64,000 bases of DNA from Beroe forskalii (taxonomy: Eukaryota > Ctenophora > Nuda > Beroida > Beroidae): the NCBI GenBank assembly GCA_011033025.1, contig WFMF01000099.1:188369-252368 (forward strand). The letters run 5' to 3'. Numbering within the stretch: position 1 is the stretch's first letter; each line of letters begins with the position of its first letter. Positions 2,302-63,235 of the stretch are shown here, piece after piece. Under the pieces are notes generated by a model, which saw only the letters and a program-made list of their open reading frames with translations, was not told where the DNA came from and did not search any database. The position numbers and the translations under genes were made by a program.

Positions 2302-2352
2302 ACACTATGGCGTCATCAATTCCCCATTCTAACCCCTGATAATGACATCACT
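2302..2352 (-). repeat. Paired-CRE module (solo copy)
   Basis: Reads in reverse complement as GTGATGTCATTATCAGGGG, then a short spacer, then AATTGATGACGCC. It matches the consensus of the window-wide module: two TGACGTCA-like sites about 40 bp apart with the order CRE-TTATCAGGGTTTAGA-GAGTTGATGACGTC. It lies only 120 bp from a palindromic element carrying the same core. Confidence 0.6.
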
Positions 2353-2471
2353 CTCTTCCGCCTACTACATCTCCCACACACTCGCTCACTTACCGGAACA
2401 CCTAGCGGAACCGCTAATGCAAACCAGTTGTAATAATAATGTCCGGCTCCTTACGGTAGACTCAGTGACTC

Positions 2472-2564
2472 GAGCGCGAGAAATAGGCGGTTCAACGGCA
2501 TCAACTTACTACGTTGAGCTATGATAATGACGTCATCATCTACCCGACTATTTCTCGCGCGCGG
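2472..2564 (-). mobile_element. Family A palindromic MITE-like element
   Basis: Terminal inverted repeats GCGCGAGAAATAGGCGGTTC and GACTATTTCTCGCGCGCGG flank a core containing ATCAACTTACTACGTTGAG and ATGATAATGACGTCATCAT. The same ends and core recur at least nine more times in the window. It is too short to encode a transposase and is presumably non-autonomous. Confidence 0.85.
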
Positions 2565-3229
2565 CAGACTCGGCGACTCCAGCACGTGCAGGAAGTGGAG
2601 CAGTCGTCAAATTAATGCTTTGTGGTACGTGATAATGAAGTCATGATATAACCATTTTAAAATGATACAAAAAATCAAGAACAAAATTGGTACTATTTGA
2701 AAAAAAGATACACAGAATTAAGCCCTCCAAATTAGAGCCCCCTATGGGTGATTTTTATACCCACGAAGAGTTAGGATCAACTTACTGCTGTGCAAGTTTC
2801 TAAGTTTAAGGTGTTAAAACGATGTCGTATTGACCGTCTTTTAGATTGCACACGCTCGATGATAAGTCGATGATATAATGGAAGTGGACAGTAGAAAAGT
2901 AGTGCACAAACTAGTAAAATCAAGATAAGAAGATACTGCTAGAAAATTAAACACGTGACCAGAATTAAGTTAAGATCTGTTGTTTATCGCGAATAACAAT
3001 CCTGTGCGAGAAAATCAGGAATACAAAGTTTCGATATTACAGCGCGTTACCATGGTAAGATATACACGAGTAGATGTTACTCTATATTTAGCTTTCACAG
3101 CTTTGAAAACACGTGGGCAATAGTGGAAATTATGTGCCAAATATTTTACCACAACGACAGTCAAATTCTACATTCGCTTTGTTACGGCTTTGCAGAGGAC
3201 AGAGAGATGTAATAGTCGGATGTAAACGG
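2565..3229. other. Gene-free stretch
   Basis: No exon is visible. There is one degenerate CRE-like site (GATAATGAAGTCATGA near 2632) and otherwise unremarkable A+T-rich sequence. Confidence 0.4.
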
Positions 3230-3560
3230 GTACATCGGTCATGGTGTCAGAGTAAATCGGTGTCAGAGTGTACTGGTGTCAGAGTCAAATTGCAAATCGG
3301 TGTCAGAGTGCACTGGTGTCAGAGTAAAACTGCGAACCTGTGTCAGAGTGCACTGGTGTCAGAGTAAACCAGTGTCACAGTAAACCGGTGTCAGAGTAAA
3401 CTGGTGTCAGAGAGCACTGGTGTCAGAGTAAAACAGCGAACCGGAGTCAAAGTAAACCGGTGTCAGAGTGCACTGGTGTCAGAGTAAAACTGCGACCCGT
3501 GTCAGAGTGCACTAGTGTCAGAGACCAGAGTAAAATGGTGTCAGAATGACAGCGTTAATT
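3230..3560 (+). repeat. Degenerate GGTGTCAGAGT tandem array
   Basis: Short units of about 16-17 bp on the theme GGTGTCAGAGTAAACT or GGTGTCAGAGTGCACT, with variable spacers such as AAACTGCGAACC. The 16-bp unit of the array at 12298-12490 (GGTGTCACAGGAAACT) and the opposite-strand array at 57590-58440 (CACTCTGACACCAGT) look related. The open frame over it is a by-product of the repeat. Confidence 0.85.
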
Positions 3561-3718
3561 GAGGGATTAGCCGTGTGAGTAAACTGGTTTCAGAACTGAG
3601 AAACGGGTGCCAAATCGGCTCTCGACAACGAATTTCCAAAGTACCCACAAGTTTATAACAAAGACTGAGCGAGGCATCTAGAGAAGCTTGATGAGAGAGG
3701 AATCTATTACTATACTAC

Positions 3719-3822
3719 TAAACGGGGGATGGATCTACTACTAGTACTACTAAACGGGGGATGGATCTACAAGAGATCCAAACAGAGTCCCCAACACGGG
3801 ACCTCCCGCTGGGAGGTCCCTG
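3719..3822. repeat. Short direct repeat followed by a perfect 10-bp hairpin
   Basis: CTAAACGGGGGATGGATCTAC occurs twice (from 3717 and 3747). It is followed by GGGACCTCCC-GCT-GGGAGGTCCC at 3798-3820, a perfect 10-bp stem with a 3-nt loop. Its role is unknown. Confidence 0.7.
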
Positions 3823-4141
3823 TTGCCAGGGCTACTGTGGATGGGAACTAGTCCCGTACCTCCCAATAAGAGAGGAATCACGCCCCGTGTAGCTGGTGAT
3901 ATAACCACATAATGTGGAGAGTGATAACAACATATAATGTGTGATAAGAGGATGAGCTGCATATATTATGTACTGACAGCACTGTCAATATCCGGGGCAC
4001 CAGCTGGTCTCGACCGATTGCGGAGGAAAACCCTCAAGAGCGCCCTTTCTACATTACTTCACCACAGATAATGATTTGATATATTATCATACACTCATAC
4101 AGCTCATATATTATTCAGCGCTCAAGTGTATTATTAAACGT

Positions 4142-4235
4142 CGCGCGCGAGAAATAAGCGGTTCAACGTCATCAACTCACTACATCGAGCTATGATGATG
4201 ACGTCATCATCTACCCGTCTATTTCTCGTGCGCGG
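4142..4235 (-). mobile_element. Family A palindromic MITE-like element
   Basis: Ends GCGCGCGAGAAATAAGCGG and CTATTTCTCGTGCGCGG around a core with ACGTCATCAACTCACTACAT and GATGATGACGTCATCAT. The orientation is the same as the copy at 2472. Confidence 0.85.
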
Positions 4236-4430
4236 AGTTTAAGTTGTGTCCAACACTCAAACGAATGGTATATTTAAGCAACAGAACGTGACGTCACTAT
4301 GACACTTAAACGTGGAAGGTTGATGCCCTCGAATCGCTTAGTTTTATCCTCAAAGACAGATGAGGTACATGCTATTAGACACTTCGCCCCTTTTAAATAA
4401 GAATATCGTCTACATACATTCACCCGTTGT

Positions 4431-4540
4431 ATTATACGCCGCGCACGAGAAATAGGCGGTTAAATTTCATCAATTTACTGCACAATGATATGATAATGAC
4501 GTCATCCTACCCGACTATTTATCGCGCGCGGCGTATAATA
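4431..4540 (-). mobile_element. Family A element with extended termini ATTATACGCCGCG
   Basis: The left end ATTATACGCCGCGCACGAG is mirrored by TCGCGCGCGGCGTATAAT. The inverted repeat therefore runs beyond the AAATAGGCGG block and ends in TATACGCC. A flanking TA on both sides is compatible with a TA target duplication as in Tc1/mariner-derived MITEs, but the element could also simply end in TA. Confidence 0.85.
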
Positions 4541-4931
4541 TACAGATAGTCGGTGCATTAGCGTTTAGCATTATAAAAGTATAAATGATGATACGTGATC
4601 ATGAATACTTTTTCACACGTTTAAACTAATGAAGAGTCCTTATCAGTTATCACAGAATTGTTTGAAAATAAACGCGCCAATTAATCAATCATTCTATCAT
4701 CCGGCTAGCTTGATCATCTTGAACCCGCAAAAAACCTGAAACCCTTAATCAAAATACCCCCAAAGGGTCCTAAGACCTTGTCTTCATCGTTACGTGACAC
4801 TTTTGAATCACAGTCCATTTGACGGGGTGATGTCATTCATTTCACTCATTTACTCAGGTCTCAGCTGCTAGGCCATCACGCTACGATTCACGAAATTATG
4901 CATATGACTTTGACAACCCACATTTTAGAAT

Positions 4932-4985
4932 AGTGAGATGATGACGTCATTATCAGGGTTTAGAACTGTGAGTTGATGACGTCTA
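4932..4985 (+). repeat. Paired-CRE module (solo, best-preserved copy)
   Basis: ATGATGACGTCATTATCAGG, GTTTAGAACTG, TGAGTTGATGACGTC. Both half-modules are intact and there are no GGCGG palindromic ends. I use this copy as the reference for the module. Confidence 0.75.
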
Positions 4986-5084
4986 ATCGCCTATATTCTT
5001 CCCTAACTACCTACTCATCAAAGAATGATTAAGTAGGGCATGCGCAGGAGCAGAGCTAAACAGGCAATGGAATATCATATTCGG

Positions 5085-5130
5085 TATGGTGTCCCCAACT
5101 CACCATTCTAAACCATGATAATGACGTCAT
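5085..5130 (-). repeat. Paired-CRE module (solo)
   Basis: Reverse complement reads GTGATGACGTCATTATCATG, GTTTAGAATGG, TGAGTTGGGGA. The first CRE is perfect and the distal one is eroded. Less than 150 bp from the copy at 4932, in opposite orientation. Confidence 0.6.
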
Positions 5131-5280
5131 CACGCTCAAGATAGTCTGCAATCTGCGTGCACCAATCCTACTCCCTTTTCTTCTCACCTTAAGCGAAGCT
5201 CATGATTCTTGTGTCTACGTGAAATAAGGAGGTGTTTGCAATTTAAACATATACCCGGCGTCTAATGCATATTTTATTTT

Positions 5281-5299
5281 ACCCACACACACACGCACT

Positions 5300-5345
<46 letters not shown>

Positions 5346-5362
5346 CGCACACACACACGCAC
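5281..5362. repeat. (CA)n microsatellite
   Basis: A dinucleotide CA tract with occasional CG and TA interruptions. Confidence 0.95.
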
Positions 5363-5423
5363 AGACGAGTGCGCGACACGCAAACACATCACTTGAAAGA
5401 GCTCACTCAAGGAGCAAGGCTTG

Positions 5424-5475
5424 GATAATGACGTCATTATCTTGGTTTATAACGATGAATTGATGAGCTCAATGC
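5424..5475 (+). repeat. Paired-CRE module (solo)
   Basis: GGATAATGACGTCATTATCT, GGTTTATAACGA, TGAATTGATGAGCTC. The first half is an 18-bp perfect palindrome GATAATGACGTCATTATC. The second is degraded. Confidence 0.65.
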
Positions 5476-5530
5476 ACCAACTAACGGCACATATTATATG
5501 AAAGCACTCAGTCGATGAAGCTTGTGTGTG

Positions 5531-5632
5531 TAACGTCGCGTACGAGAAATAGGCGGTTCAACGTCATCAAATCACTACATCATGATATGATAATGACGTC
5601 ATCCTACCCGCCTATTTCTCGTGCGCGGAGAA
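5531..5632 (-). mobile_element. Family A palindromic MITE-like element
   Basis: TCGCGTACGAGAAATAGGCG at the left and CCGCCTATTTCTCGTGCGCG at the right, with the core ACGTCATCAAATCACTACAT and GATAATGACGTCATCC. Confidence 0.9.
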
Positions 5633-5714
5633 TAAACCTATTTCTCGGCGTGTAATCGTGTAATATGCCCCATTTTATGGAGCTCACTCCAGAGGGTGAG
5701 AGTAGAGTAGTAGA

Positions 5715-5802
5715 CTCCGCGCGCGAATAATAGGCGGTACAACGTCATCAACTTACTACATTTAGCTATGATAATGACGTCATCCTAACCGCCTATTTCT
5801 CC
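5715..5802 (-). mobile_element. Family A palindromic MITE-like element, right end eroded
   Basis: Left end CTCCGCGCGCGAATAATAGG. The right end stops at CCGCCTATTTCTCC without the GCGCGG tail. The core ACGTCATCAACTTACTACAT and GATAATGACGTCATCC is intact. It is only 83 bp from the previous copy. Confidence 0.8.
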
Positions 5803-7802
5803 TGTGAGAGTAGCAGTAGCTCACAGAGAGTTGTAGTGAGTCCTAATAGTAGTACTAATAATAGTACGCAATATTAGCAGGGGGAGGGGGAGGTAAGAGC
5901 ATACTTAGCTTCAACTGCTAGAGAGAGTGTTGCACTGTTGCAGGGTAAAGGGAAGGGGTACAATTTTAGAATCTTTTGAATCTGCTTCATTGAGTCAAAA
6001 GAGAAAAAATGAAGTGCACAATAATTTTACTTGTTGAATCATTTACATGCCTCCTGCTACATCAAAGTATTGAATAGATCCTACCAGAACCTCTAGAATC
6101 TAGATTTAACTTGAATCATTGAAGAGAATATAACAGTGCCTGGATCACTGGACACTGGACTCCCATTCTCTTTGTCCTAAGACCTAATAACTTAATAACA
6201 TTTTAAATAGCTAATTGTAACCTGGAAAAGAGAAGGATCAAGGCCCTATGCCCAGATCCCTTGACTTGAGGGACCTGGTATGGGTTTTCAGCTTTATCAT
6301 CCGAGTAGTTTCTATCAAAGGATCGGAGTTATAAATCTGTGGTTGTGTTGAGAAACACACTTTGTATATTCCAGGATTTGACACAATACCTAGCTGCTCG
6401 GAAGATTTTGTTAATATTTGAGAATATGACAAAGTCTTCTGCTTCAGAGGAATATTTATGAGAATATGGTGAAGGGGAAGATAGTAAGTACCTCTCAAAT
6501 ATACAAAACGAAACTGGGAGTCAATTAAAATGAAGCCCTGGTTTAATGAGGAAATGCAGCTAATGACATGAAGAAAGAATCCAGATCTTCAATACATATA
6601 TCATGCAATAGGTCCTGAGGAGTGATGTCATTATCTGGGTTTATAGAGGAGGACTGAAGATGTAGAAGTGCTTATTTTCATTTAGAAGAAGATAAAGTTA
6701 GAGAGTGTCTGGTCGTTGTCTGGCAGGTATTGCTCCTGAGAGTTAGGCAGAAAACGTATGAGTTGAAGTTAGGCAGGATTATATGTCTGCAGCTATCATA
6801 GTTAGAAGAACATGGAATTACTTCTTACATAGTATATCATTATGTATGAGATACAACCATTATGCACTGTACGAGATACCAAAATAAACAAAAAAAATAA
6901 GCTTAACTCAAAAGGTTAAGACTGAAGATACAGATATTATCAAACAAAATATCTGAAAATAGAGACAGAGAGGTTGAAAAGTAAAGGTCACATACGAGTA
7001 AAGATGTAACATCTTAACATCTTTTAACAGTGAGGGTAATTTAGATTGAAAAACAAAATGAAGACCTTTATCGTAGAAAAGGTAAGGTATCATTAAGGCA
7101 AAATAACTGTGTCTGTACTTAGACAGAAGTACCTACTACTCTACTAACCTGCTATTCAGAACATAGATCGTATGAAGTCTACCTGCTTTGACTACTCCAA
7201 GCACACTATCAAAGTCTACTTCTATTTACTTAATGAGGATAATATCAAGTCTACGACGTCTGCTTCATACATTCATTTCCATAGTTAGAATCTAGATAAC
7301 ATACAAGAAGATAAGTAGGAGCAATGAACAATATGCAATGTGCATGCAGAAAGGCAGACAAGTCCATCACAATATATTCTCTTTTATTAGAATTTAGTTG
7401 AACAAATTTTAGAGCATATTACTGCGCAGAACAAAGCGGACGAGTGCAGTGGGAAGAGAGTTTATTCAGAAGAATTCTCCGACTCGTCCAATTAGCAAGA
7501 TATGTCTGATTCATTAATATATCTTAATATGTTAATATGCAACTACAATGATATTATAATATTACTTTTTTCTATATATCACAGTAATTTTTTCTAAACA
7601 AAACTATAAAAACGTTCCAAAATATCTTAAAATAAATCATCATTGGATCGATTTAACATTATCGAATCACAGATCACTCAAGACACGAATGAACAAACAA
7701 ACACACTACTCTAAACCCTGAATTTGTACATACTTAGCATAATATAATTTACACAAATTATAGCTTTTATATAAGCTATTACTGAGTCCACTTAACATTG
7801 AC

Positions 7803-10074: not shown

Positions 10075-10278
10075 CCTTAGGAGGTGTATTTATATGGGAT
10101 AAAATTTCGGTGTTTCAAATTTTGGTAAGTTGAAAATATGGGGATTTTCTCAATCATTGCTCTCGTTAAGATAAGATGATAATGACGTCATTTTGAACTG
10201 TCATGGTGTGTGGAAAAAATGGGGATTTTTCTGAAAAATCCCCAAATTACAACCTTTATAAATAAACCTCCTGCAAGG
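10075..10278 (+). mobile_element. 204-bp palindromic element with CCTTAGGAGGTGTATTTA ends
   Basis: Starts CCTTAGGAGGTGTATTTATA and ends TAAATAAACCTCCTGCAAGG. Its centre contains GATAATGACGTCATTTTGAA. It matches, in the opposite orientation, the element at 11632-11834, including the AAATGGGGATTTTTCTGAAA block and the CATGGTGTGTGGAAAAAA block. A TA dinucleotide precedes the left end. Confidence 0.85.
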
Positions 10279-10845: not shown

Positions 10846-10940
10846 ACGCTCAGAATAAATAGGCGGTTGCAATGATGTCATTTACACTGTGCGCGCTGCC
10901 AAATTGTTGAAAATGACCGCCTATTTCTCGTGCGCGGGGT
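10846..10940 (+). mobile_element. Family B element (variant core)
   Basis: AATAAATAGGCGGTTGCAAT at the left and ACCGCCTATTTCTCGTGCGC at the right are family A type ends. The centre is different: GATGTCATTTACACTGTGCG, CGCTGCCAAATTGTTGAAAA. The same centre occurs at 59073-59174 in reverse orientation, which defines a second subfamily. Confidence 0.8.
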
Positions 10941-11834: not shown

Positions 11835-11967
11835 TAGCTTCAAGAGACATGTATAGCGCAACAAACATACACTTGGTAGCAGAGCAAAGCCTGTCCATTC
11901 TACTACGCTAGACCTGTACGATATACGATGCTTTGCGGAGTGATATATAAGCGCAGTTTTAGGGTTT

Positions 11968-12012
11968 TACATCACCACCTGACAACATTAAGTCATGATA
12001 ATGACGTCATCT
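11968..12012 (-). repeat. Paired-CRE module (solo, one half degraded)
   Basis: Contains CATGATAATGACGTCATC preceded by CATCACCACCTGACAACATT, the eroded second half. Confidence 0.5.
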
Positions 12013-12619: not shown

Positions 12620-12677
12620 GGCATTTCAAACGTCACAAACTCATTACTTTGTGATATAATGATGACGTCATCATAAC
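12620..12677 (-). repeat. Paired-CRE module
   Basis: AACGTCACAAACTCATTACT followed by GATATAATGATGACGTCATC. Both half-modules are recognisable. Its layout is like the core of the family A element, but no GGCGG ends are present. Confidence 0.6.
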
Positions 12678-13523: not shown

Positions 13524-13630
13524 ATTAAACTCCGCGCACGAGAAATAGGCGGGTAGGATGGCCTCATAATCATCGCTCAATGTGGTGAGTTGATGACGTT
13601 GAACCGCCTATTTCTCACGCGCGGCGTATA
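13524..13630 (+). mobile_element. Family A palindromic MITE-like element
   Basis: TCCGCGCACGAGAAATAGGC at the left and CTATTTCTCACGCGCGGCGT at the right. The core reads GGTGAGTTGATGACGTTGAA, opposite in direction to most other copies. Its first CRE is mutated (GGCCTCATAATCAT). Confidence 0.9.
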
Positions 13631-15665: not shown

Positions 15666-16461
15666 ATGAAGATGATTCATGGTTGGTTCCTAGTAGCTCT
15701 GACTATCAGTCTGGTGGAGGGTCAGTAACCAATTATTCTATTCACTCATTCACTCAATTATAATATTTTGGCCTAACATTATAATCCGTCCTTTTTAATA
15801 AGCTCTAAGGAGGTATACCGTACAGATTTTTCTTTGTATCCCTCAATAGCCTCATAATCCATATACTTCAATAGGGCTTAGGGCATGTCGCAAGAAACAT
15901 CGACTTAGCATGATATAAGTAATTGCTTTTCCGATTTCAGCCTGGACGTTAACGGTATCTTACGGATCTGAAAGTATGGATTTGGATGAAGATGTAAGCA
16001 AGTTCTCAGAACTTGGTATCAACGATAAAGTAGAGTCTGTGACTGCAGTGGATGGTAACTGGAAACTTTATCTGCATAAGGACTTCGAGGGAGATTGTGT
16101 CACCATTTGTGAAGGATTAACCTATGGTGCCGAAGAGTTGGAAGGATATGGTTTGTACCAAAATATATCGTCTGTAGAAAATGACAATACCGCATGCATT
16201 TTGCAACTGTCGGTAAATGACAACCTAGAAGGAACAACCATGAAAATCATCGAACCTGTCCCGAGAATGGGTCTAAAAGGCTTCAATGATAGAGTATCGA
16301 GTGTCAAAGCCCTTGGTGGTGCATGGATGGTGTATGGAGATAAAAATTACGAGGGAGTTAGTATGGCAATCTGCGAGGGACAAACAGTGTCTCAGAGTGA
16401 ATTAGCCGAGAATGGCCTTGACGACAACATTACTTCTGCCAAACCAGTAATATCTTGCTAA
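15666..16461 (+). CDS. Secreted beta/gamma-crystallin, two domains (four Greek keys)
   Basis: Two coding exons, 15666-15720 and 15941-16461, encode 191 residues. Exon 1 gives a signal peptide (start MKMIHGWFLVALTISLVE) and ends in phase 1. Exon 2 follows the acceptor CCGATTTCAG. The mature part has four Greek-key motifs of about 40 residues, i.e. two crystallin domains. Calcium-site signatures of the type N/D-N/D-x-x-S/T-S are seen as NDRVSS and DDNITS (both good), with NDKVES and YQNISS as weaker versions. The repeated pattern LHKDFEGDCVTICEG and GDKNYEGVSMAICEG marks the equivalent second strands of the two domains. Family knowledge: such proteins bind calcium and are very stable. Vertebrate lens members lack signal peptides, whereas invertebrate and microbial members are often secreted. 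A role outside the cell is inferred. The start codon is chosen because it yields the signal peptide. No clear AATAAA follows the stop. Confidence 0.92.
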
Positions 16462-17077: not shown

Positions 17078-18947
17078 CTATGGTGTTTTTTAAATTTATT
17101 CCGACATGATTATCTAGTGAAATGAAGTTAGTCCGGCGTGATAATCAAGTAATAGATTGCTTGCCTGGCTTTTATACCACTTTATAAACGCTGATGAATA
17201 AAAAATAACATTGGAAAATGGGCTGTTAGGAAGAATAAATACAAACTAACATCAAAAAGACATCAAGAATAAGACAGATGGGGAGATGTTAAATATAGAT
17301 GTTATGGGGAACCTAAGACGAGACGGCCATTATACCAACAAGAGCCACTAAATGAAAATATGAAAGGCTTGTTATCGATGGACGCGCTGGTTATATCTAT
17401 CTGATAATATAAATTAACGATTTACATAGCATTTGTAAGGAATAATCAGCCATTTAACAACCCATAACTATTAACGGCACACAGCATAATATGTGGCACT
17501 GTGACGTCACTATGAGAGCGTAGCATGGGGAAGTGATGCCAGCTATATATATTACCAAGAGTTGGGTATAATGTTATTATTATAGCAGGAAATAAAGCCA
17601 CCAGGAAATCTCTGGATCATTAGACTCAGCACACGCAGTCTAAACATACGACGCAGCTGCTGGTGAGAGCAGAGTATGAATATATAATTAGCATATATTC
17701 TCATATATTCAAAATATAAGATAATCATTAGGACTTTCTGAGCATGTGAAATGATAATGTACGATGCTTCAATACTTCAATGTCAATATGAAATTGCTGT
17801 CAAATGACATCTTTCTTTCAAATAAAGCCTCTCACAACACCTGTCTTTTGAAGCTTTGGGATGCCCTTACTCATTATTCCAAAAGTCTAAAGTTCTCACT
17901 CCTGTCATAAATAAATTGCCATGGAATTTGTACTGTGACAATTCGTGGACTTCTAGGTTTGAAGCGAAGTGGGGAAGTTTCAACTTTATACAACTATTGG
18001 TGTGAAGGTGTGCACTGGAGATTCTGGAGAATCAGGACGTGTCAATGTGAATTCCCGGTAGTGTGTAGCGTCACAGCGATATTTATACTTTTGTAAAACT
18101 CCCTAGCATTAAATATTTGATGATACCCGTCACCAGAGAGTTCACAATTTTCTCTTCTTCCTTGGCATTATGTAAAAAGTAACTTTCACACAATCCGTCA
18201 TGCAAGAAAATAATAAGGAATAAATCAATGCTGTGACTCGCATGGAAAGTCGTGTAACGCCTCTCAGTCTTACGAGTAGGGTATTAAGTGCAAGAGGTAT
18301 AACTACAAACCATAGCAATGAAATTTGCTTGATACTGAATACATTACTTATTGGCGCAGATTTCCACTCCGGCACCAAAAAATTATCCGGGTGTACAACT
18401 GATATCTTGATGTACAAAATGTACAACACAATGTGGAGCAAAGTAAAACTTGGAGCAAGTCATATGGCTCTGTAAACGGAGCTAAGTTTGGAGCCAACTC
18501 TGAGTTTCCATGAGGGGCCCCGAGGTTAGAGGGAACCATGATCTGCCTTCAGAGTTCAGAAAGTGATGTGTAAGAGTGAGAGTGATGTGCAAGAGTGATG
18601 AGTCATATTTCAAGTGGAGGGAATAAGTGATATATTTCAAGTGATTTTAAGAGAGATTTATCAAGAAATTTATCTTGCAGCTTCCACAAAAACTAGAAAT
18701 ACTCCACACACACAAGATGAGCAGTGCTTTGTACACACACACACACACACACACTCACATCCTATAACACACTCTATGAAGTTGGGAGGAAGTCGCAACA
18801 TATTAGTAAAGGTGTTTAGGATATACCACGGCTAGTAACTCTAATGTACTTTAATTGAGGAGAGTGAGAGTGATGGTTTACAGACTAAAATGAGTGGAGT
18901 AATATATATTATATGCGGGGCTGTTTACAGGATGAGTTGGAGGCAGG

Positions 18948-18999
18948 GAGTGATGTAATTATCTTAGTTTCATGTGGTGAGTTGATGACGTCGAAGGTC
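18948..18999 (+). repeat. Paired-CRE module (solo, first half degraded)
   Basis: GAGTGATGTAATTATCTTAG, TTTCATGTGG, TGAGTTGATGACGTCGAAGG. The second half is perfect and the first is mutated from GACGTCA to GATGTAA. Confidence 0.6.
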
Positions 19000-29920: not shown

Positions 29921-30025
29921 TAAACGCCGCGCACGAGAAATAGGCGGTTCAACGTCATCAACTCACTACTTTATGAAATGATAATGACGTCATCCTACCC
30001 GCCTATTTCTCGTGCGCGGCGTATA
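29921..30025 (-). mobile_element. Family A element inserted in a tandem repeat
   Basis: Ends AAACGCCGCGCACGAGAAAT and ATTTCTCGTGCGCGGCGTAT around the usual core (ACGTCATCAACTCACTACTT, GATAATGACGTCATCC). The flanks are copies of each other: GATTTAGAGTTGTTTGTAAT before and GATTTGAAGTTGTTTGTAAT after, and a third, more diverged copy starts near 29850. The element therefore sits inside, or created, a roughly 33-bp direct repeat. Confidence 0.92.
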
Positions 30026-31374: not shown

Positions 31375-31420
31375 AGTGACGTCATTATCAGGCGTTAGAG
31401 TAGAGAGTTGATGTCATTAC
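31375..31420 (+). repeat. Paired-CRE module (solo)
   Basis: GAGTGACGTCATTATCAGGC, GTTAGAGTAGA, GAGTTGATGTCATT. The first half is perfect and the second differs at one CRE base. Confidence 0.65.
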
Positions 31421-31590: not shown

Positions 31591-31714
31591 TTGTCGGTGT
31601 GTTTCACTCTAACAATGTCAGATATCACAGACACACGTTACTTTCACGAGTACTGTGTGAAATGAATTCACAGCTGACTGTGTCAAATGTATCAGATGCG
31701 AGGACAGGTGACAA

Positions 31715-31762
31715 TATGTCGACAATTTCCCATTTTAAGCCCTGATAATGACGTCATTCTCT
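31715..31762 (-). repeat. Paired-CRE module (solo)
   Basis: Reverse complement reads GAATGACGTCATTATCAGGG, CTTAAAATGGG, AAATTGTCGAC. It carries the same CRE-TTATCAGGG half as the reference copy. The second half is degraded. Confidence 0.6.
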
Positions 31763-34885: not shown

Positions 34886-34942
34886 AGGCGACTGAGAATG
34901 ACGTCATTATCAGAGTTTAAACTGCCAATTTGATGACGTGAA
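34886..34942 (+). repeat. Paired-CRE module (solo)
   Basis: GAGAATGACGTCATTATCAG, AGTTTAAACTGC, AATTTGATGACGTG. Close to the reference in both halves. Confidence 0.65.
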
Positions 34943-35284
34943 ACTGTCTGTTTCCCATGCACGAGCATTAAATCAACTTATCTGTTGTCGAGAGAGTGAG
35001 TAATGTGTCATGTGACATTATATCATCTTATCTGTAGAATGTCAATGAGTGGTGGTGACATCCACTACTTCCATATTTGGAACTAAATCAGTGGTTATTG
35101 ACCATATATGGTATTATTGTGACGTCACTGGTTGATAAGGCCCCGTGAAAGACCCCTGATTTATCTAGGTAGTGATCCGTGAAGTATAAAGTGGTGTAAA
35201 ATCGTGTCAATTTGTTAATTAGCCCGTTGAAATGCAACACTCGAGTGTAGAAATTACATGCTTCTTGTAGATAAATGATGGTAT

Positions 35285-35332
35285 TTTGTCATCAGTTTGC
35301 CATTTGAAGCCCTATTAATGACGTCACTCCAA
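35285..35332 (-). repeat. Paired-CRE module (solo)
   Basis: Reverse complement reads GAGTGACGTCATTAATAGGG, CTTCAAATGGC, AAACTGATGACAAA. Confidence 0.5.
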
Positions 35333-37864: not shown

Positions 37865-38050
37865 GGCAATATTCTGTTTCTCAGCAGTGTGAAATATCGA
37901 ACTCTTGATCACTCTCAGTTTCTCAGCCGAATTGTGTGAAATATATCGAACTGTTGGTCACACTCACAGTCGACTGTGCAGGACTTGATTAAGTCACAGA
38001 CGGCTGAGAGTGACGTCATTATCAAAGCTGGAAATGGTGTTTTATCCATC
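37865..38050 (+). repeat. 45-bp direct duplication followed by a CRE half-module
   Basis: TGTGAAATATCGAACTCTTG and TGTGAAATATATCGAACTGT mark two copies of a block with TCTCAG. It is followed at 38004 by GCTGAGAGTGACGTCATTAT and a degraded second half. Confidence 0.65.
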
Positions 38051-38607
38051 ACATTTAGCCATATGAAACGGGTATTATTGTGTGGGGAGTGAAACCAGGG
38101 AAGTGTCGTTAACTTGTTTTGTTTGTTGTTGGAATGCTTTCTTTGGAAGACATACAACCACCGCATTTTCCGGAGTGATTTAGTGATTTTCTGTTCACAC
38201 AGTTCCGTTCCTAATCTATTTCCATCTGATGATGCCTACATGGGATCGATCAGGGGCGTCGATCGAGCCATGGTCCATATTTTCCTTTTATAAAACCACA
38301 GGGAGTCAATGAGTCGCATTCCCTTCATGATTTAACCGCAGCAGCGGGACCCAATGGCCATCGTAATAATAATTTGAGTCCCCGTCCATAATACGATGGT
38401 GTAAGATAATAGATTTAAAATACCTCTGTTCTTTAAAATTCAAATATAAAATATATTCCCGTTATTATAGCTCTGGATTGTGATATATGACAAAGCTTCT
38501 TCTATCACATCACCAATTTTCCACGTACAGTCCTGACCATGACATCCCATTCGAACTCGTTTTATATATTTGTACGCAGCATATGAGCTATTTAAAGGAG
38601 AAGGAGT

Positions 38608-38705
38608 AAACGCTGCATAAGAAAAATAGGCGGTTTAACGTCATCAACTCACTACATTGAGCTATGATAATGACGTCATCGTCTACTCGCCTATTTCTCG
38701 TACTA
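38608..38705 (-). mobile_element. Family A element with duplicated flanks
   Basis: The core (ACGTCATCAACTCACTACAT, GATAATGACGTCATCG) and the inner ends (AAAATAGGCGG, CGCCTATTTCTCGT) are clear. The flanks TATTTAAAGGAGAAGGAGTAA and TATTTAAAAGAGAAGGAGTAA are near-identical direct repeats, one on each side of the element. Confidence 0.85.
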
Positions 38706-38875
38706 TATTTAAAAGAGAAGGAGTAATGCCCTCTATATTTACTCTTCGTTTAAATATAGCGGGTTTCACGCTAAGATTCGGAAATCCCAGACTTTTGATT
38801 AGTTTCCCATTAATTTCCTCGACCTGTGTATATTATTTATATTCCTCAATCTTTAATAAGCTAATAGTAGTATAT

Positions 38876-39518: not shown

Positions 39519-39624
39519 AATGCCACGCGCGATAAATAGGCGATTAGATGATGACGATATAATCATAGCACGATGTAATAAGTTGATGACGTTCAACTGG
39601 CTTTTTTTCGTGCGTGGGGTTTTA
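39519..39624 (+). mobile_element. Family A palindromic MITE-like element, diverged
   Basis: CCACGCGCGATAAATAGGCG at the left and TTTTTTTCGTGCGTGGGGTT at the right, with the core GATGACGATATAATCATAGC and AAGTTGATGACGTTCAACTG. Several CpG-type substitutions are seen. Confidence 0.8.
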
Positions 39625-41769: not shown

Positions 41770-41845
41770 TATATATTACAGAAAACGTCAGAGGGTTCTA
41801 TAATCATCATCCCATTACTATTCAGAGCATAATTTTTAGGAGTGC

Positions 41846-41972: not shown

Positions 41973-42154
41973 ATGAGCAGAAATGATGCCAAAACAAATA
42001 ATCAAATCGGTCATGCACTGTTACAAATTATTGCACGCTTATAAGTACCCTCAAAATTGGCTAATATAACTTATTTACTAATATCATTATTTAATATTGC
42101 TCATAATATTGCCTTAAATTATTGCTCTGACGTTACTTTGGTTTGCATGGCATG

Positions 42155-43837: not shown

Positions 43838-43890
43838 GGATTTGGTGATGACGTCATTATCACGGTTTACAGTGGGGTTGTATCGACGGC
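43838..43890 (+). repeat. Paired-CRE module (solo)
   Basis: GGTGATGACGTCATTATCAC, GGTTTACAGTGG, GGTTGTATCGACGG. The first half is perfect and the second degraded. Confidence 0.6.
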
Positions 43891-45690
43891 AAATCACCTA
43901 ATTTCTCTTCCTGACCTTCAGGTTCTTCCCTGAGCCGCCGCAGCTAAAAGAGTGTCTAATTATTAAACACAATACACCAGAATATTATGGTTAATATGCA
44001 TATATTTTGAGTAAGATTTGTGCTCAGGTTTCTCTCCCACGGAGCTCAATTTAGCATTGCAGAGCATCTAGTTAATTAGGCAATTAATTAGTTAATTAGG
44101 TAAACAGCTCATGCTTTTCATATCAAAAATGCCGTTATAGTTTCGTTGTATGAAGGTATTATATGACAGCATTTCACCACGGTAACTGCTGATATTATGT
44201 TGTCTTTCGATTATAGTTTGGTTTTTGTGTTCGTATTATGATTTATATTTCATACTTCATGCCACCATTATTTTCTGTGTAGGTCCTCAAAAACAACTTG
44301 AGCGTGAACAACAGTATTACAGCAAGGTGGTAAAATTTTGAGCTTTTTTGTCTGCTTGAACTAGAAAGCTAAATTACTGATTTCTGATACAGCATGCATT
44401 GATACCACTAATTGGGTTCCCGTCATACGGAATACACTCTCAGGCACATGATAATTGGATATCGAAAAAGACGAATAGGGGTTAAAGTTTTTGAGGATTG
44501 CTGGAGTTGCCTTCCTAAGAAGTCGTAACTATTAAACTATTAGCAACCTGGACAATCCATCTGTAGGCCTTGTAAAGTTGTACTCTTGTAACATGTGTTC
44601 AAATTGTAAACATTAATATGATTTTAATGCCCTATTATCATAGGGAGACTAATGCCCATCTTCATATGGTAATGTTAATTGAGCCCCCACCGGGAAGTCA
44701 TGTTATAAGTACAGGCCAGTACATGCATAGCTATATTAACTACAGGTTGCAGCTGAGATTATAGGTGATTGGTAGTGACTTAACTATCATGGATTAGGAT
44801 GGTGTTTTGTGATCAAATTGCCTCTTAGAAAAGTATACCATATTATACAGCAGCTACCAATGACACCAAAACACCTGGACACACCATAATGTGGCTTGTG
44901 AGTCCTGTAGGGTGTACTTCAATATAATGTTATACCAGCTCAGTTATACCAGCACCTATACCAGTGCAGTTATAGGAACTTAGTATTTAGCTCGTGATGT
45001 ATGTCATGGGAACTTGCGAGGTTAGAACTGTATTATATATTTTTGGGGTTCCTACGTACTGTATTACCAACGTTATTTTTACTTTGGTTTGGAATTTGCT
45101 TTGTTGTTTCATAAGTTCATAGTGCCAATTTGAATGCAAATATTTTCATTTTAGTTGGAAGGGACTCCTTCATTGTTTATTTTATAGCAATTTGTTTTTC
45201 TGTACATGAATTTTCATTTTTCATATTATGATCACTTGTGCTTTAGTGAACAATTCTTGTGTTTAAAGTATAATACTTGTAACTCTGTAAAATTGTAAAG
45301 TGAAAATCCACTGCAGATTGCCATAAATGGCATTATTGCTTTTTACATATCGTCACCTTAATGTAGAAAGGGCCTAAGTGAAAAAATCAAGTTTCGAGAA
45401 AAACGCGTTTAAAGTTTTTTATCGCAATGTAAATCTGTTCAACCTGTTCTAATCATGGTTTAACTTACTTTTTTGATTAAAATAATAGATTTATTAATAA
45501 AGCAAAATTCTATGTGAACTTAAGCCCTTTCTATGTTTAGGTGACGATATTATGAACTTATGAACAAGATATTCATCGTGTGGGTTAATAAAGAAGTGAA
45601 TTTAAATTTTCGTAATTTGGACCCACAATCATGGTTTTAGCAACTTTCCTGATTACAATTATAATTTATTAAAACATAAATTCTCAAGGT
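43891..45690. other. Gene-free stretch upstream of the acidic/KTP-rich gene
   Basis: A+T-rich. No exon can be read with confidence, though untranslated first exons of the following gene could lie here. Confidence 0.35.
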
Positions 45691-55932: not shown

Positions 55933-57589
55933 GTAAGTAGTGCTTTCCTGCGTTTGCCTGACCCATTATTATAGATAAATTTTATAATTGTGAGTTGGGT
56001 CGCGCACGAAAGGGGCCAAGTATTGAGCAGATCAATACTTGGTCTTGATCAGGTTCATTCTCAGATAAGGATTGAGACATTTCTTCGATGTTCCTTCATA
56101 AATTTTTAGGAATTAACTAGTAACCAGTGACTTCGTTTGGTTGATTAGCTGAATGCACAGGGATAGTCGTATTTCAATTAGTTTAGCTTTCGTTGAACTT
56201 ATGGATGAGCTTCAGTATCATACAGTGCCATAGTCGAAATTTCAGTACCTAGATGTCAAATTTGGTGACACTAACTCACTAATCGATAAATAATATTGAA
56301 TGCTTACCTTTAGCATATTATGTTTACTGGTAGTTACTATAAAATGTCCAATGTTTGATTGACACACAAACATTATTAATAGGTTAACGAATAACAGTTC
56401 GCGACGTTAAAAATTCCTTGCATATCTTCCTCACTGTCCTGAAACTTCATAACAAGAAACAGTTAAAAAACGTAATTTAAACGGCCTAAATATTGCCTTA
56501 TCAATTATCTGCTGTCAAAACGTATCATGTTGCGGGTATTTTTCTAATTTCTGAAATTGTTTTGTGGAAGTGTTGTGACATCTGCTAACCGAACCAGTTC
56601 ACGTTTTCTGCAAAAATATTTGCTGACTTTTTATCCGCCCTTCTTGCAGCAATGTTGTTCATTTTCTATAGAAAATATGAGTTTTAAACCGGGTTAAAAA
56701 ACTTTAAATGTTGTCCCTTTTGCATAATTTGTCCATATTTAACCGTTTTTCTTTCATTTCTGGGGGTGTCGTAAAATATGAATTTCTTTTGTATTTTATC
56801 GCATCATTGGCTATAAATTCCCATGCTCATTACTCAATCCAAACAAAAACCTACATGCCGAAAATATTTCGTCTTACATATTTACTACAACCATTTCCTT
56901 CCCACAATAATTAGCCGTATAATCAAACCGTCATTACTATTCGTCGTAATACAGTATTCCCATGCTTTGCTTAAGAAAAACCTATATGATTTTAAAACTT
57001 AATCAATTCCCTTGTCATATCCATGATAATGACGTCAACTGGTAGTGCTACCTATTTTTTGGGGCACGTTAAGTAGCATCTGGCATCTATTCGATGATGA
57101 TTTATCCTCTAATAGTTACCGAATGTTAACTTAAAGGGGTTCTCTGCTCCAGAAAAAGTGCTATTTTTCATGATCCAATTTATTAATTAGTTCTGTAACA
57201 ATAATCATGGTGAAATTCCCATGTTTCTAGGTGCCTCCTATCGCGAGATATCGCACCTTTATGTTACGGCGCGATGACGTCACTACTGCACCAGACCGCA
57301 ACTGACTGCTATGCGCGCTATTAAAATACGTGATAAAATTGGTATTTCCCACATTACTTTTATTGTTTGCTTCACTTTTAGTTTTCTTATTTTTTTTAAA
57401 TGATTGTTTGCTGATTAGATATGTTAGTTAATTGATACACTCAACTATTTATGCATTCATTTTGGGACAATAGGATGGGAAATGAGCCCATCTTGCCTGC
57501 AGTAAATTCTGACAGTTTTCATTGTGAAATCAGTACTTTAAGGCATCAGCTATCTCCGAGATACCTTCACTCACCCCTTATTTGATCTG
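55933..57589. other. Presumed intron or gene-free stretch
   Basis: A+T-rich. One CRE half-module near 57020 (CATGATAATGACGTCAACTG) and one GATGACGTCACTACTG near 57275. No KTP-like exon is visible. Confidence 0.4.
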
Positions 57590-58440: not shown

Positions 58441-58922
58441 AAAAGTGCGTTACTATACCTATGTTAATATTACTGTGAATATGCATTATGATTTGTACGT
58501 AGTAATAGTATCAATAATCATATTTAGTCAATCATGATGAATAAAACCGCTTCAAAATGTATAATTTGGAAAATCATCCAAAACCTAAGGTGAATGTAGT
58601 AAATTCCGTCCATGAACTAGGATGAAATACTAGATAAGCATGCTAAAAGCTTAACAATTTCACTAGATTTCACACCTATTTCCTACTACAATAGTACAAT
58701 AAGCTGTTTCACCTTTAATATAACACTGTGCGACAACATGTTGGTGCTGGAGTGACGTCATCGCGCTAAATTTTTAAACCGCAATAACTCGCGAAATAAT
58801 AAGGATAGAGGGATGGGGATTTCAACATTTTATAACATGTAAGGTGAGATATGATAAAATCATAATGATTTCAATTTCATATAAAGTCAATTCTATACCA
58901 GAGAACCCCTTTAAGTATTAGG

Positions 58923-59025
58923 TTCGCTGCGCACGAGAAAAAAGCAAGTATGATGACGTCATTATCATAGCTCAATATAGTGAGTTGATGACAATGAACC
59001 GCCTATTTCTCGTGCGCAGAGTATC
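58923..59025 (+). mobile_element. Family A element with duplicated flanks
   Basis: CTGCGCACGAGAAAAAAGCA at the left and CGCCTATTTCTCGTGCGCAG at the right. The core is GATGACGTCATTATCATAGC and GTGAGTTGATGACAATGAAC. The flanks AGTATTAGGTTCGCTGCG and AGTATCAGGTTCGCTACG are near-identical direct repeats. Confidence 0.9.
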
Positions 59026-59072
59026 AGGTTCGCTACGTAATTACATGAAGGAAGGATCGTTACACCATCTGT

Positions 59073-59174
59073 ACCCCGCGCGCGAAAAATAGGCGATTAT
59101 TTTCAGCAATATTTGGCAGCGCGCACAGTGTTAATGACGTCATTGCAACCGCCGATTTGAATTCTAAGCGTATA
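59073..59174 (-). mobile_element. Family B element, second copy
   Basis: CCCCGCGCGCGAAAAATAGG at the left. The centre TTGGCAGCGCGCACAGTGTT, AATGACGTCATTGCAACCGC is the reverse complement of the centre at 10846-10940. The right end is degraded. Confidence 0.8.
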
Positions 59175-59700: not shown

Positions 59701-60306
59701 TGATCAGTAAACTAGTAAATAACATTCTGGAAGTTTCTCGGTAACTTTGATCATTTCATATAAACATTAGCTCCCTCCTCTCACACAGTCTTTGTCACTT
59801 ATAGAGTACCTACAGAGCACCTATTGATGTCAAATGAGATGACACCGCGCCAATATGACAGTTTTACGTCGTCTATATGTACTGTTTTTGCTCGATAATG
59901 ACGTCAGTTTCCACGTATTACTCTAGCAGTGCTGTAAAGTGATTGATCAACAGTATGAGTAATTGTACAACCTAAAGTGATTGATCGAGGTGTATGAAGG
60001 GTTATGCGCCTTTTCTTTGATGAGAAGTACACTTGCCCCTTCAACTCAATACACGTGACGTATCACGTGACCTTTCACGTCACGGGTTATCACGCGCTAC
60101 CAATGACAGGTCTTAGATAGAGTCTGCATTTGCGCGTCATGACTGCTGAATAATTACGTCCATTGTGTGTCTTGGTCAGCTTGTTGCGTGAGTGATTGTC
60201 TACTGTGAAGTGTGATCCGGTGAAATAACCCGGTAATTTTAAAAATATCTTGTCGCTCATTAAAGCTGTGATTCTCCCTGATTGTTTGGTCGCAATACTT
60301 CTCGTT

Positions 60307-60876: not shown

Positions 60877-61075
60877 CACTAATGCGCCAATTTATTAGGT
60901 GCTTGAAGTTTTCTTTCTATTTTTCCAATTACATGGCGTAACCGGTGGATATTGCTACTCACTAATGCGCCAATCTATTAGGTGCTTGAAGTTTTCTTTC
61001 CATTTTTCCCAATTTCCCATGAAGTAACCGGCGGAATTTACTAATGCGCCAATTTATTAGGTGCTTGAAGTTTTC
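60877..61075 (+). repeat. Tandem repeat of about 80 bp, three copies
   Basis: ACTAATGCGCCAATTTATTAGGTGCTTGAAGTTTTC starts at 60878, 60961 and 61040 (periods 83 and 79; the motif is described here only by its ends ACTAATGCGCC and TTGAAGTTTTC plus the middle). The third copy is truncated. Confidence 0.92.
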
Positions 61076-61217
61076 TGTGCGTGCTATCAGACAATGCGGC
61101 AGCAAGTTCGTGTGGGACCATGCCCCCTCAGAGATCTGGGGCCACGCTTACCTGCCCTATTTAGCCATGTAACTATACGCCTCCCTCTGTGAGACTGTCA
61201 TGTGATATGGGGCATGT

Positions 61218-61420
61218 GGGGCGTAGCCGGGTTCTGGGAAAGGGTTCGGCGAGTTACTATGGAGCCAAGCGAAATAAGACATTCGAAATGTTTTGAATGT
61301 AACTTGCATTCAAAACATGTCGAATGTCTCATTTTGCCAAGCTCTTATCATTACAAAAGTTTCTCAATCTCTGTCCGAAAAGGGGAGGTGACTGTATCAC
61401 CTCCCCCCGGCTACGCCCCT
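61218..61420 (+). mobile_element. 203-bp element with GGGGCGTAGCCGGG ends
   Basis: GGGGCGTAGCCGGG and CCCGGCTACGCCCC are perfect inverted ends. The interior has ACATTCGAAATGTTTTGAAT mirrored by TTCAAAACATGTCGAATGT. GCATGTG borders the left end directly and the right end after CT. Confidence 0.8.
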
Positions 61421-63050
61421 GCATGTGATCCATATCATGTGATATGGGCATGTGATATGATTCAGAGCTTCTTTTGCATCACACGGCACATAGATAGATA
61501 TTGTGTTCTTTCGATGCATGTTTGTTCATTAAATATCAGTTGTTTATACTATAGGTATCGACAGTTCTCGTAGGTTTTCGGCATGGTTCCCATCAAATTC
61601 ATGAAACTTTTGTACATGTATATATTGGTCTTCAAACATGCATATTGCATCCTTCTAAAATTGATTATTCCTCGTGCCCTTTTCTTTCTATAGATTTATG
61701 TGGTCAGTGGTGTCGGTCTTTCTTTGAATTCTCCTTTAATACAGGAGCGTGTCGAACTCCTTAGTGCGCGGCTTTTTCAAGTGCGGCGTAAGGCAGGTGT
61801 CGCCACCTCGAGAAATGAGAATTCTTCTGAAATTTCCGATCGTGCGGCGCCATGTACGTAGGTGAATATACTGTTAAATCAGTATCACACGCGTACAAAT
61901 TGTGGTTTTGTGGAAAGTTCAGACACCGATCTCAGAGGTGGCGACACCTCAGTTATCCATAATCGTGCGCGGTTCACTGCCTGTAACTAGAGGCAGTGAG
62001 CCTGGACTCTGGAGCCGCGCACGTTGACGTAGGAGTTCCACACGCAGCCGATTATAATGTAGTCCAGGGCTTACTATCCCGAACCCACGGAATCTCCACT
62101 GAATGACGCAGATTGCATGGTGGATTATCAATGTTCCAAATATTACTGCTGAGTTATAAATTTCGCTTTAGTAATTATAATTTTGCGAAATTATTGCATA
62201 AGTCGTTTTTATGGAGGTGCGTTACAAACCACATAAGCAAATCATGTTTTCCAAGTGCGTAGATTAATGCTTTTCACTTGCAAAGTATCGACTGCTATAT
62301 CTTCCTTTTCAGGTTGTCTGCATTCACAAGGCCAGTCACATGGCCAGTCACCTCATCAGTCACATGACCAGTCACATCACCTAATTCACCTCTCACTGAT
62401 TGGTAAGGATATATAGTTTCGTTTTCACGGGTGTTTCAAATTTAAGAGTACGGATAAAGGTAATACACACACGAAGCACGATCTCTGCTTCCCCTAATCC
62501 CCTTCCCTATTTCCTAAATTCCTTTTTTAACCAGTAATTGCTATTGGGGAATCGTTGAGAAGGGAAATGAGGAGCTGGGAAGAGTTTACAACAGCAAGAG
62601 ACACTCGAAAAGAAAATATTGGTTCTATCTATTTTTTTATAGTGAAGGAATTTTGGTTTTATAGCGAAGGAATTTTTATGTTGAACCTTTTGAAAGTGCT
62701 ATAAGAAGGCGCAAAGCCGACACCGATTCATTGAAAATATTTCTACTTATAAGTGCCGAGGCCCAAATAACGATGCCATAACTTATACAAGACTCAACTA
62801 GACAGTTTTTATTATGTGAAGACTCACATTTTTCCTGAATATGTTAATTAGTCTTCTGATTTTACAAGTGGCAATACTACTAGGCAGCCTTAGTAAAGCA
62901 TTTATTTTTATCAAATGTTAATTGACTTAATGAAGTAACAACTACAGATACTTATCGAACCCTTTTCACTAAAGTAGCACCTGCTTACAAATAACTTAGG
63001 AGAAACATGCACTCATTCATTTCTTCTATATTTACTTCATTTCATCTCCC
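61421..63050. other. Gene-free stretch
   Basis: A weak inverted repeat (AGGTGTCGCCACCTCGAGA near 61795 and TCAGAGGTGGCGACACCTC near 61932) and a short AGTCACATGRCC tandem near 62333-62375. An acceptor-like TTTAATACAG at 61735-61744 precedes an open stretch but lies in the inverted repeat. Confidence 0.4.
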
Positions 63051-63054
63051 TCTG

Positions 63055-63090
63055 ACCAATCAGAGCACAGGGATTTCCCGGCAACCAATC
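63055..63090 (+). promoter_or_regulatory. Paired CCAAT boxes (direct, 29 bp apart)
   Basis: CCAAT at 63056 (GACCAATCAGAGC) and 63085 (AACCAATCAAAA). The first is the same extended sequence as at 14328. Confidence 0.3.
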
Positions 63091-63197
63091 AAAAAACAGC
63101 TGTTCGTCACATGACCCCATTTTCATATCTGTCGGAGATATGTGAGCACTATGAATCACTCACTGTGTGTGCCGCTCAGATAGGTTTATCTCGCTCG

Positions 63198-63235
63198 GAA
63201 TGACGTCATAACGAGGGTTTAAAATGACAAATAGT
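63198..63235 (+). repeat. CRE half-module
   Basis: GGAATGACGTCATAACGAGG, GTTTAAAATGAC. The first half is recognisable and the second is lost. Confidence 0.5.

Follow-up and report, generated by a model that had tools for sequence, protein, structure and literature searches.

A dispersed module with a CREB/ATF-type site, derived from a short near-palindromic transposon in an invertebrate genome

Short mobile elements in which one domain persists while the remainder changes quickly have been described before. SINEs with a highly conserved domain are known, and the V domain of about 120 bp sits in the MITE MER6; the excerpted text of that paper proposes a regulatory role for such domains (PMC6887750). 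IAP LTRs carry TGACGTCA and binding of CREB1 was shown, according to the excerpt of the report concerned (PMC9729108). In carrot, MITEs were linked to LHY/RVE-controlled genes, as stated in the part of the article cited (PMC13102513).

The element described here was found in a 64-kb stretch of DNA analysed as a whole (the window). It resembles the conserved SINE domains and the V domain in that a short domain, which can sit in a MITE, persists in fast-changing short elements. The V domain is about 120 bp long, whereas the best-kept unit here is 12-14 bp with a recognisable transcription-factor site and no tRNA-like head was found; the likeness is drawn without sequence comparison to the SINE domains and from the excerpted text (PMC6887750). 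With the IAP LTRs it shares the state of a mobile element carrying TGACGTCA, but the excerpt places the IAP CRE in a retroviral LTR promoter, whereas the putative site here lies in the old remains of a tiny element without coding capacity (PMC9729108). The carrot MITEs offer a parallel, as MITEs whose cis-regulatory effects involve a transcription factor, although the cited part of that work concerns a plant and a different factor (PMC13102513). No literature on the element itself was found, by title and start of abstract, among the matches listed, and we do not claim that it is unpublished.

Copies of the module and the elements that carry it

The word TGACGTCA, which has the sequence of a CREB/ATF response element (CRE), occurs exactly 34 times in the window against 0.85 expected (20 Markov sequences), and 26 of these 34 exact CREs lie inside module copies when class C, defined below, is included. 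Six of the seven other motifs counted sit at background, for example TGACTCA (11 vs 10.95). TGATGTCA/TGACATCA is above background (24 vs 4.05), with 14 of the 24 words in a coding 27-bp repeat; three of the 24 are first sites of copies described below, the word at 31409 stands where the 31377 copy has its second site, and none of the other 20 had significant module context (lowest p 0.1). Exact counts in the window were 20 for TGACGTCATTATC, 6 for TGAGTTGATGACGT and only 1 for AGGGTTTAGAACT.

The profile scan ended at 34 matches, from which 59387 (score 14.2, within a tandem repeat) was removed and 10873 (score 18.4) was reassigned to class C. The 32 copies left comprise 10 of class A, located within near-palindromic elements of 93-95 bp, and 22 solo copies of class B, the latter at a density of about one per 2.9 kb; class C denotes two related elements with the same ends that stand outside the module count. 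All 32 score at least 24.2 against a top score of 9.2 in 15 order-1 Markov sequences, the former being flattering values since the copies partly trained the profile. An unmasked profile grown from class A only gave 23 non-A matches, namely the same 22 class B copies and 30696, which was left out as marginal (score 13.2 vs threshold 12.8) and reads AAGCGTCA at the CRE position.

The sequence-only reading had proposed a conserved, paired-CRE module repeated more than twenty times across the 64 kb. It was right about the number, with 32 copies by profile scan, and all 15 of its solo coordinates fall on module copies; the scan added seven further solo copies (CRE at 1263, 4289, 17502, 38540, 44776, 57030 and 59899). 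The arrangement is conserved in that the module of about 43-50 bp has fixed spacing, but its middle varies between two core types, about ATAGCTCAATGTAGTGAG in class A and about AGGGTTTAAAATGGTGAG in class B. Of the proposed pair the first CRE is real, whereas the second is a decaying half-site, reading TGACGT in 11 of the 32 copies and the full TGACGTCA in none.

The ten class A elements were delimited by ends and alignment, and in all ten both ends match the terminal inverted repeat CCGCGCACGAGAAATAGGCGG at 15/21 or better. Four of the five elements with direct repeats are on the minus strand. The element at 2470..2564 has 22-bp repeats (4 mismatches; 2454-2475 and 2562-2583) that overlap its ends, that at 5717..5809 a 10-bp exact repeat GTGAGAGTAG (5696-5705 and 5804-5813), that at 29927..30019 repeats of 40 bp (4 mismatches; 29887-29926 and 30024-30063), and that at 38613..38707 repeats of 21 bp (1 mismatch; 38589-38609 and 38706-38726). 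The fifth, 58927..59019 on the plus strand, has 18-bp repeats (2 mismatches; 58914-58931 and 59020-59037). The segment 29923-30023 folds as a hairpin (z -11.7), as is expected of a palindrome. No clear direct repeat was seen at 4141..4235 (minus; score 7.5, p 0.091), and none was found at 4439..4531 and 5536..5628 (both minus) or at 13532..13624 and 39523..39617 (both plus), the last two having degenerate CREs (TGGCCTCA and TGACGATA, respectively).

The class C element at 10846..10937 (plus) has the same ends and keeps the CRE position (TGATGTCA) with a different core and no clear direct repeat. Its counterpart at 59076..59171 (minus), assigned by ends and alignment, has an intact CRE at 59135, one clear end and one eroded end, and no direct repeat was found with the right boundary taken as 59150. 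Classes A and C thus have common ends and a CRE equally far from the end, with unlike cores.

These 92-96 bp elements are MITE-like in being short, without coding capacity, near-palindromic and present in many copies with terminal inverted repeats (21 bp scanned). They differ from MITEs in that the flanking direct repeats, clear on 5 of the 12 A/C elements and not found as such on the other seven, range over 10-40 bp rather than having a fixed target site duplication length. Pfam found no transposase in the 18 ORFs of the window that were scanned, a minority of its total. SINE-type duplications would be of variable length; the direct repeat lengths here do vary, but on only these five elements. 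An RNA-gene-derived SINE head (tRNA, 7SL, 5S) was not found, as Rfam gave no match at the gathering threshold and ARAGORN predicted no tRNA in the window, a search that a degenerate head would escape; inspection of the 12 elements by eye showed no A-rich or simple-repeat 3' tail at their ends. TAGCTCAATGTAGTGAG presumably resembles a tRNA box A, and its tRNA-like reading was rejected on the same Rfam and tRNA results. A hammerhead ribozyme was dropped for lack of an Rfam match at the gathering threshold.

Exact patterns of the core and ends had no match in viral contigs in each of four scans; in genome contigs one scan gave no match and another gave one. This lone match (L001, a bacterial MAG) was set aside, as by eye it lies without the rest of the element in coding-like sequence and about 0.5 matches are expected by chance arithmetic.

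Solo copies and intact elements form one family

The module is transposon-derived, because the flanks of class B retain a weak trace of the class A ends and because direct repeats of 10-40 bp flank five of the A/C elements. The right flanks of class B match the class A ends at 9.7/24 positions vs 8.2/24 at random window positions (P 0.0002) and the left flanks at 10.5/25 vs 8.5/25 (0 of 5000 resamplings). Single remnants can be seen at 34899..34941 (both ends; right p 0.002, left p 0.011), 43849..43891 (right end, p 0.023) and 63201..63243 (right end, p 0.002), all on the plus strand. Flanking direct or inverted repeats were found on none of the 22 class B copies (lowest direct p 0.026, lowest inverted p 0.067). 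The intact and solo copies were shown to be one family in which the ends of the solo copies are eroded, and the solo copies look like old members of the element. A reading of the solo copies as 43-bp transposons ended by two CREs is disfavoured by the poor conservation of the second CRE (67 %).

Retention of the CRE in old copies

Retention was assayed with a profile built from class A only, whose members are defined by their ends, with the CRE masked and the training copies scored leave-one-out. Thirteen of the 22 solo copies passed, and they kept 100 of 104 CRE bases (96 %); three of the four changes are C to T at the CpG of the CRE. On the plus strand the copies detected are 4942..4984, 5429..5471, 6623..6665 (reading TGATGTCA), 18951..18993 (TGATGTAA), 31377..31419, which is duplicated internally (TRF unit of 32, 31372-31431), and the above-mentioned 34899 and 43849 copies. 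Those on the minus strand are 2308..2350 (CRE 2343, reading TGATGTCA), 5087..5129 (CRE 5122), 11967..12009 (CRE 12002), 12628..12670 (CRE 12663), 31714..31756 (CRE 31749) and 35284..35326 (CRE 35319).

The other nine escape detection unless the CRE contributes to the score. They are, on the plus strand, 4289..4331, 17502..17544, 38011..38053 (right half eroded), 44776..44818 (degenerate CRE, TGACTTAA) and the 63201 copy with its end remnant, and on the minus strand 1228..1270, 38505..38547 (weak, with the degenerate GGATGTCA at the CRE position), 56995..57037 and 59864..59906, in which little is left beyond TGACGTCATTATC. A possible extreme relic outside the 32 copies, 10148..10190 (minus; TGACGTCATTATCA, CRE 10183, right half unrecognisable), appears when the right block is masked.

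Other blocks masked likewise were retained at 82 % (8-13), 62 % (14-22), 62 % (23-30) and 78 % (31-34), the second CRE at 67 % and the edges at 46-54 %. A sliding mask with jackknifed consensus gave for the old copies a peak of 0.95-0.96 at offsets 0-4 and 0.35-0.50 outside; five of its 31 runs (offsets -6, 14, 18, 42 and 44) drifted to 41-45 matches and were dropped as unreliable. Class A had no such peak, the right end (0.91-0.95) being kept as well as the CRE (0.95). Under an alternative null, which combined an order-3 Markov model trained without module copies and the window in reverse, the CRE was retained at 95.8 % in 12 old copies, the 43849 copy being absent. Decay of the first CRE as fast as that of its neighbours, which the sequence-only reading had named as refuting, was not seen in these masked-profile tests. 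The second CRE does decay like its surroundings, and 'paired CRE' was therefore an overstatement.

The 13 old copies, whose identity to the consensus is 71 % (over 31 columns, leaving aside the first 14 bp), fit a star phylogeny: the variance of pairwise identity is 0.0084 vs 0.0093 simulated (P 0.57). A 20-copy star test left out 38540 and 59899. Since the 13 copies are star-like, most change looks post-insertion and the CRE looks retained after insertion. With all 14 bp masked, nine old matches were obtained, one of them (29170) without a CRE, and CRE retention was 63/72, or 61/64 excluding 29170. Relics that lost the CRE may exist, because the marginal CRE-less match 30696 was dropped. Block 8-13 was kept at 71/78 in the same 13 copies, not significantly below the CRE (Fisher 0.21), and what is kept is therefore a unit of 12-14 bp rather than a clean CRE; about TGACGTCATTAT survives preferentially in old copies detectable without it.

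Competing explanations and significance

It is highly improbable that no mobile element is involved and that ancient host regulatory modules were duplicated locally as an array. Twelve of 34 copies do lie in one 5.5-kb stretch (P 0.002 vs uniform placement, with the window size picked post hoc), but the inverted ends are defined, direct repeats border five of the A/C elements, and copies occur in both orientations over 62 kb. An artefact, in which neutral relics were sampled by profiles and thresholds favouring CRE-bearing copies and 13 copies from one window are too few, is unlikely. The small sample speaks for it, together with the nine solo copies seen only through the CRE, the CRE-less matches 29170 (14 bp masked) and 30696 (marginal, unmasked) and the drifted mask runs. 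On the other side, training never used the CRE, scoring was leave-one-out, two different nulls agree, other blocks under the same procedure gave lower retention, and the 20 remaining TGATGTCA/TGACATCA words lack significant module context.

A closer rival, which we take seriously without expecting it to hold, is that the CRE and its extension serve the element itself, by binding a transposase or host factor or as promoter of a retroposed RNA. Many diverging active lineages would then all have kept the CRE, and the differences among solo copies would reflect lineage divergence and not host selection. It accords with the shared ends and CRE-to-end distance of classes A and C despite their different cores, with the known conserved domains inside fast-changing short elements, such as the V domain of the excerpt (PMC6887750), and with the CRE driving IAP LTR activity, as the excerpted report has it (PMC9729108). 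The old copies are also slightly more alike pairwise than a star predicts (mean identity 0.558 vs 0.528). Against it, pairwise identity among the 13 old copies is no more variable than simulated for a star, so that subfamilies went undetected, although a few copies drawn from a very large family might look star-like too. The flanking repeats that a recent insertion should show were found on none of the 22 solo copies.

Over this rival we tentatively favour a CREB/ATF-type site that was dispersed by a transposon and kept by selection. A metazoan genome would have been seeded repeatedly with copies of a short, non-autonomous and near-palindromic mobile element of 93-95 bp whose CRE lies just inside one end, and a bZIP factor of the CREB/ATF type would bind the surviving site. 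Copies in which such binding helps would be kept by purifying selection, the element being the vehicle that spread a regulatory site and its remainder decaying around the retained 12-14 bp. The sequence-only reading, which had posed a choice between a dispersed cis-regulatory element and only a transposon core, is partly supported: a short element resembling a transposon carries the module, and any cis-regulatory role would be putative. Judged from sequence, there are hints that the predicted CRE sites in old copies may be in use. If a genome of at least 100 Mb resembles the window, tens of thousands of sites under selection would be required, which counts against the favoured reading.

In its widest form, which we consider doubtful, a tiny palindromic element whose insertion leaves long direct repeats of variable length would have wired much of an invertebrate genome with CREB/ATF-type sites, with purifying selection preserving a site of 12-14 bp in most old copies as the surrounding element dissolved. 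The unequal flanking repeats also leave one asking by what mechanism a palindrome of this size inserts. That mobile elements disseminate regulatory sites has often been suggested, but evidence of a specific factor site outlasting the element that brought it is hard to come by. Here the contrast is legible within single copies, between 12-14 bp kept at about 95 % (in copies found without it) and 45-80 % for other blocks. If true genome-wide, it would make the number of transposon-delivered sites under selection something that can be tested by counting.

Copies of the CRE module and anatomy of the elements

The window contains 34 occurrences of the CREB/ATF-type site (CRE) TGACGTCA, where 20 Markov sequences predict 0.85. 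Six of seven further motifs counted there were at background, and TGATGTCA/TGACATCA was found 24 times against a background of 4.05, with 14 of these words falling in the coding 27-bp repeat near 49 kb. That tandem repeat (48976-50006, 38.2 copies) reads as a 9-residue repeat such as PAPDVTEEF within a long acidic ORF at 47557-50217. A second CRE-bearing repeat, GCGCGATGACGTCACTNCNGCACC, had two exact copies, at 57269-57292 (+) and 58743-58766 (-), in comparison to a mean of 0.00 in 100 shuffles, and a short tandem of TCACGTGACAT-like units at 29634-29691 contains two more exact CREs (29643, 29678). The window also comprises tandem pairs of ~64 bp repeat units with ATTTGCAT and TTGCAAAATG (40664-40788, 41838-41977), an inverted duplication in four reported pieces (116-894 and 32153-32885, 92-94% complementary, arms 31-33 kb apart) and a beta/gamma-crystallin ORF at 15919-16461, where Pfam Crystall matched in two stretches. 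This ORF and the intron-rich appearance of the DNA would be compatible with a metazoan source.

Profile scanning of the window gave 34 matches scoring over the best of 15 Markov sequences. The match at 59387 (score 14.2, within a tandem repeat) was left out and 10873 was assigned to class C, a pair of related elements, so that the final census of 32 copies comprised 10 near-palindromic elements (class A) and 22 solo modules (class B). All 15 solo coordinates proposed by the sequence-only reading coincided with class B copies. A search grown from class A copies only recovered the same 22 and, in addition, 30696, a marginal match that was excluded. Twelve of the 34 copies, class C included, crowd within 5.5 kb (1263-6623; P 0.002 vs uniform placement, for a window size picked post hoc).

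The class A elements are 93-95 bp long, a 2-bp longer form occurring in four of the ten, and all ten have ends like CCGCGCACGAGAAATAGGCGG on either side. In the alignment the CRE sits 6 or 8 bp inside one end and is followed by the core, with a half-CRE 35 bp beyond the first CRE. The module had been read as a paired CRE, which held for the first site but not for the second, where full TGACGTCA was found in 0/32 copies and TGACGT in 11/32. The class C elements (10846-10937, 59076-59171) share the class A ends, one side being eroded, and carry the CRE in the same aligned position, with a different core. Class B shows the core but no clear ends.

The left and right flanks of the 12 class A and C elements were compared, with 132 mismatched pairs as a control and the right boundary of 59076 taken as 59150. 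Five elements, all class A, stood out for direct repeats: 2470 (22 bp, score 12), 5717 (10 bp, exact, score 10), 29927 (40 bp, score 30), 38613 (21 bp, score 18.5) and 58927 (18 bp, score 13), the exact lengths being uncertain because several repeats run a few bases into the element ends. The top control score was 8.5, excepting two pairs with overlapping flanks in the window (44 and 12). Such variable lengths are at odds with a cut-and-paste MITE, whose duplication has a fixed length. The other seven elements had no clear flanking direct repeats, and none of the 22 solo copies had convincing direct (lowest p 0.026) or inverted ones (lowest p 0.067). Class B flanks matched the class A ends at 9.7/24 on the right (random window positions 8.2, P 0.0002) and 10.5/25 on the left (8.5, 0/5000 resamplings), the best individual remnants being at 34899 (both sides) and 63201 (right). 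Since this signal is weak on average, the ends of the solo copies are largely gone.

Retention of the first CRE

The masked test started from class A copies, chosen by their ends, and one block was hidden during the search and read only afterwards. The threshold was the highest score reached by 30 Markov sequences over the remaining columns, training copies were scored with themselves omitted, and retention was expressed as the agreement of the non-A copies with a consensus built from them. Retention of the masked CRE was 96.2% (13 copies), in comparison to 82.4% for block 8-13 (18 copies; offsets from the CRE start), 62.2% for 14-22 (20), 61.8% for 23-30 (19), 77.9% for 31-34 (17), 66.7% for the second CRE (21), 45.7% for 41-47 (20) and 54% for the left block -5 to -1 (20). 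Decay of the CRE as fast as its neighbours, the outcome which the sequence-only reading had set against its own proposal, was thus not seen for the first CRE. The CRE-masked search recovered 13/22 solo copies, with 100/104 CRE bases intact; the other nine were detectable only when the CRE was counted.

Within the same 13 copies, where non-CRE columns had served detection and are therefore inflated, the CRE was better kept than 8-42 (340/455, Fisher 1e-7), 31-38 (85/104, Fisher 0.0015) and the edges (69/117, Fisher 8e-12), and not significantly above block 8-13 (71/78, Fisher 0.21). What is retained is thus about TGACGTCATTAT(CA), longer than the octamer by itself.

The block-mask test was borne out by sliding an 8-bp mask along the module and jackknifing the consensus: the old copies (those outside class A) gave 0.95-0.96 at offsets 0-4 and 0.35-0.50 outside, five of 31 runs that drifted (41-45 matches) being disregarded. 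Class A was not uniform, ranging from 0.68 to 0.96 (CRE 0.95, right end 0.91-0.95, mid-core 0.76-0.78), with a left end at 0.68-0.74, where the 2-bp length difference shifts four copies out of register. Another null gave 95.8% in 12 copies with the CRE masked. Masking all 14 bp left nine old matches with 63/72 CRE bases kept, or 61/64 on omitting 29170, a match without a CRE; masking the right block 31-43 gave 64% in 19 copies.

Three of the 24 TGATGTCA/TGACATCA words, CpG-decayed forms of the CRE, are first sites of known copies (2343, 6623, 10873) and one (31409) stands where the 31377 copy has its second site. The other 20 had no significant module context (lowest p 0.1), and at this sensitivity these words gave no sign of an unrecognised set of modules whose CREs have decayed at the CpG.

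Age of the copies and origin of the retained site

Outside the first 14 bp (31 columns) the 13 old copies have 71% identity to the consensus. The variance of pairwise identity among them matches a star phylogeny (0.0084 vs 0.0093, P 0.57), with mean pairwise identity slightly over the star expectation (0.558 vs 0.528), and 20 of the 22 class B copies (without 38540 and 59899) gave P 0.54. On its own, class A is younger (88% identity) and likewise star-like; pooling it with the 13 old copies departs from the star pattern (P 0.02), as two families should. It therefore seems that the old copies changed after insertion and that the CRE was maintained where it stands, which is support rather than proof because about 20 copies were sampled from a possibly very large family.

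A close rival explanation is that the element itself depends on the site and that the copies derive from many lineages, which the high copy density and the CRE common to classes A and C favour. The star-like pattern and the solo copies without insertion marks favour usefulness to the host instead. Exact pattern scans (core and ends) of viral and genome contigs found no relatives. Precedents are the V domain in MER6 (PMC6887750), CRE evolution through C-to-T change at the CpG of the site (PMC1796609) and the CRE in IAP LTRs (PMC9729108). The best supported reading is that a small mobile element would have dispersed a CRE-type site, and that the host may benefit from the retained copies through a CREB/ATF-type bZIP protein, whose involvement is suggested by the sequence of the site.
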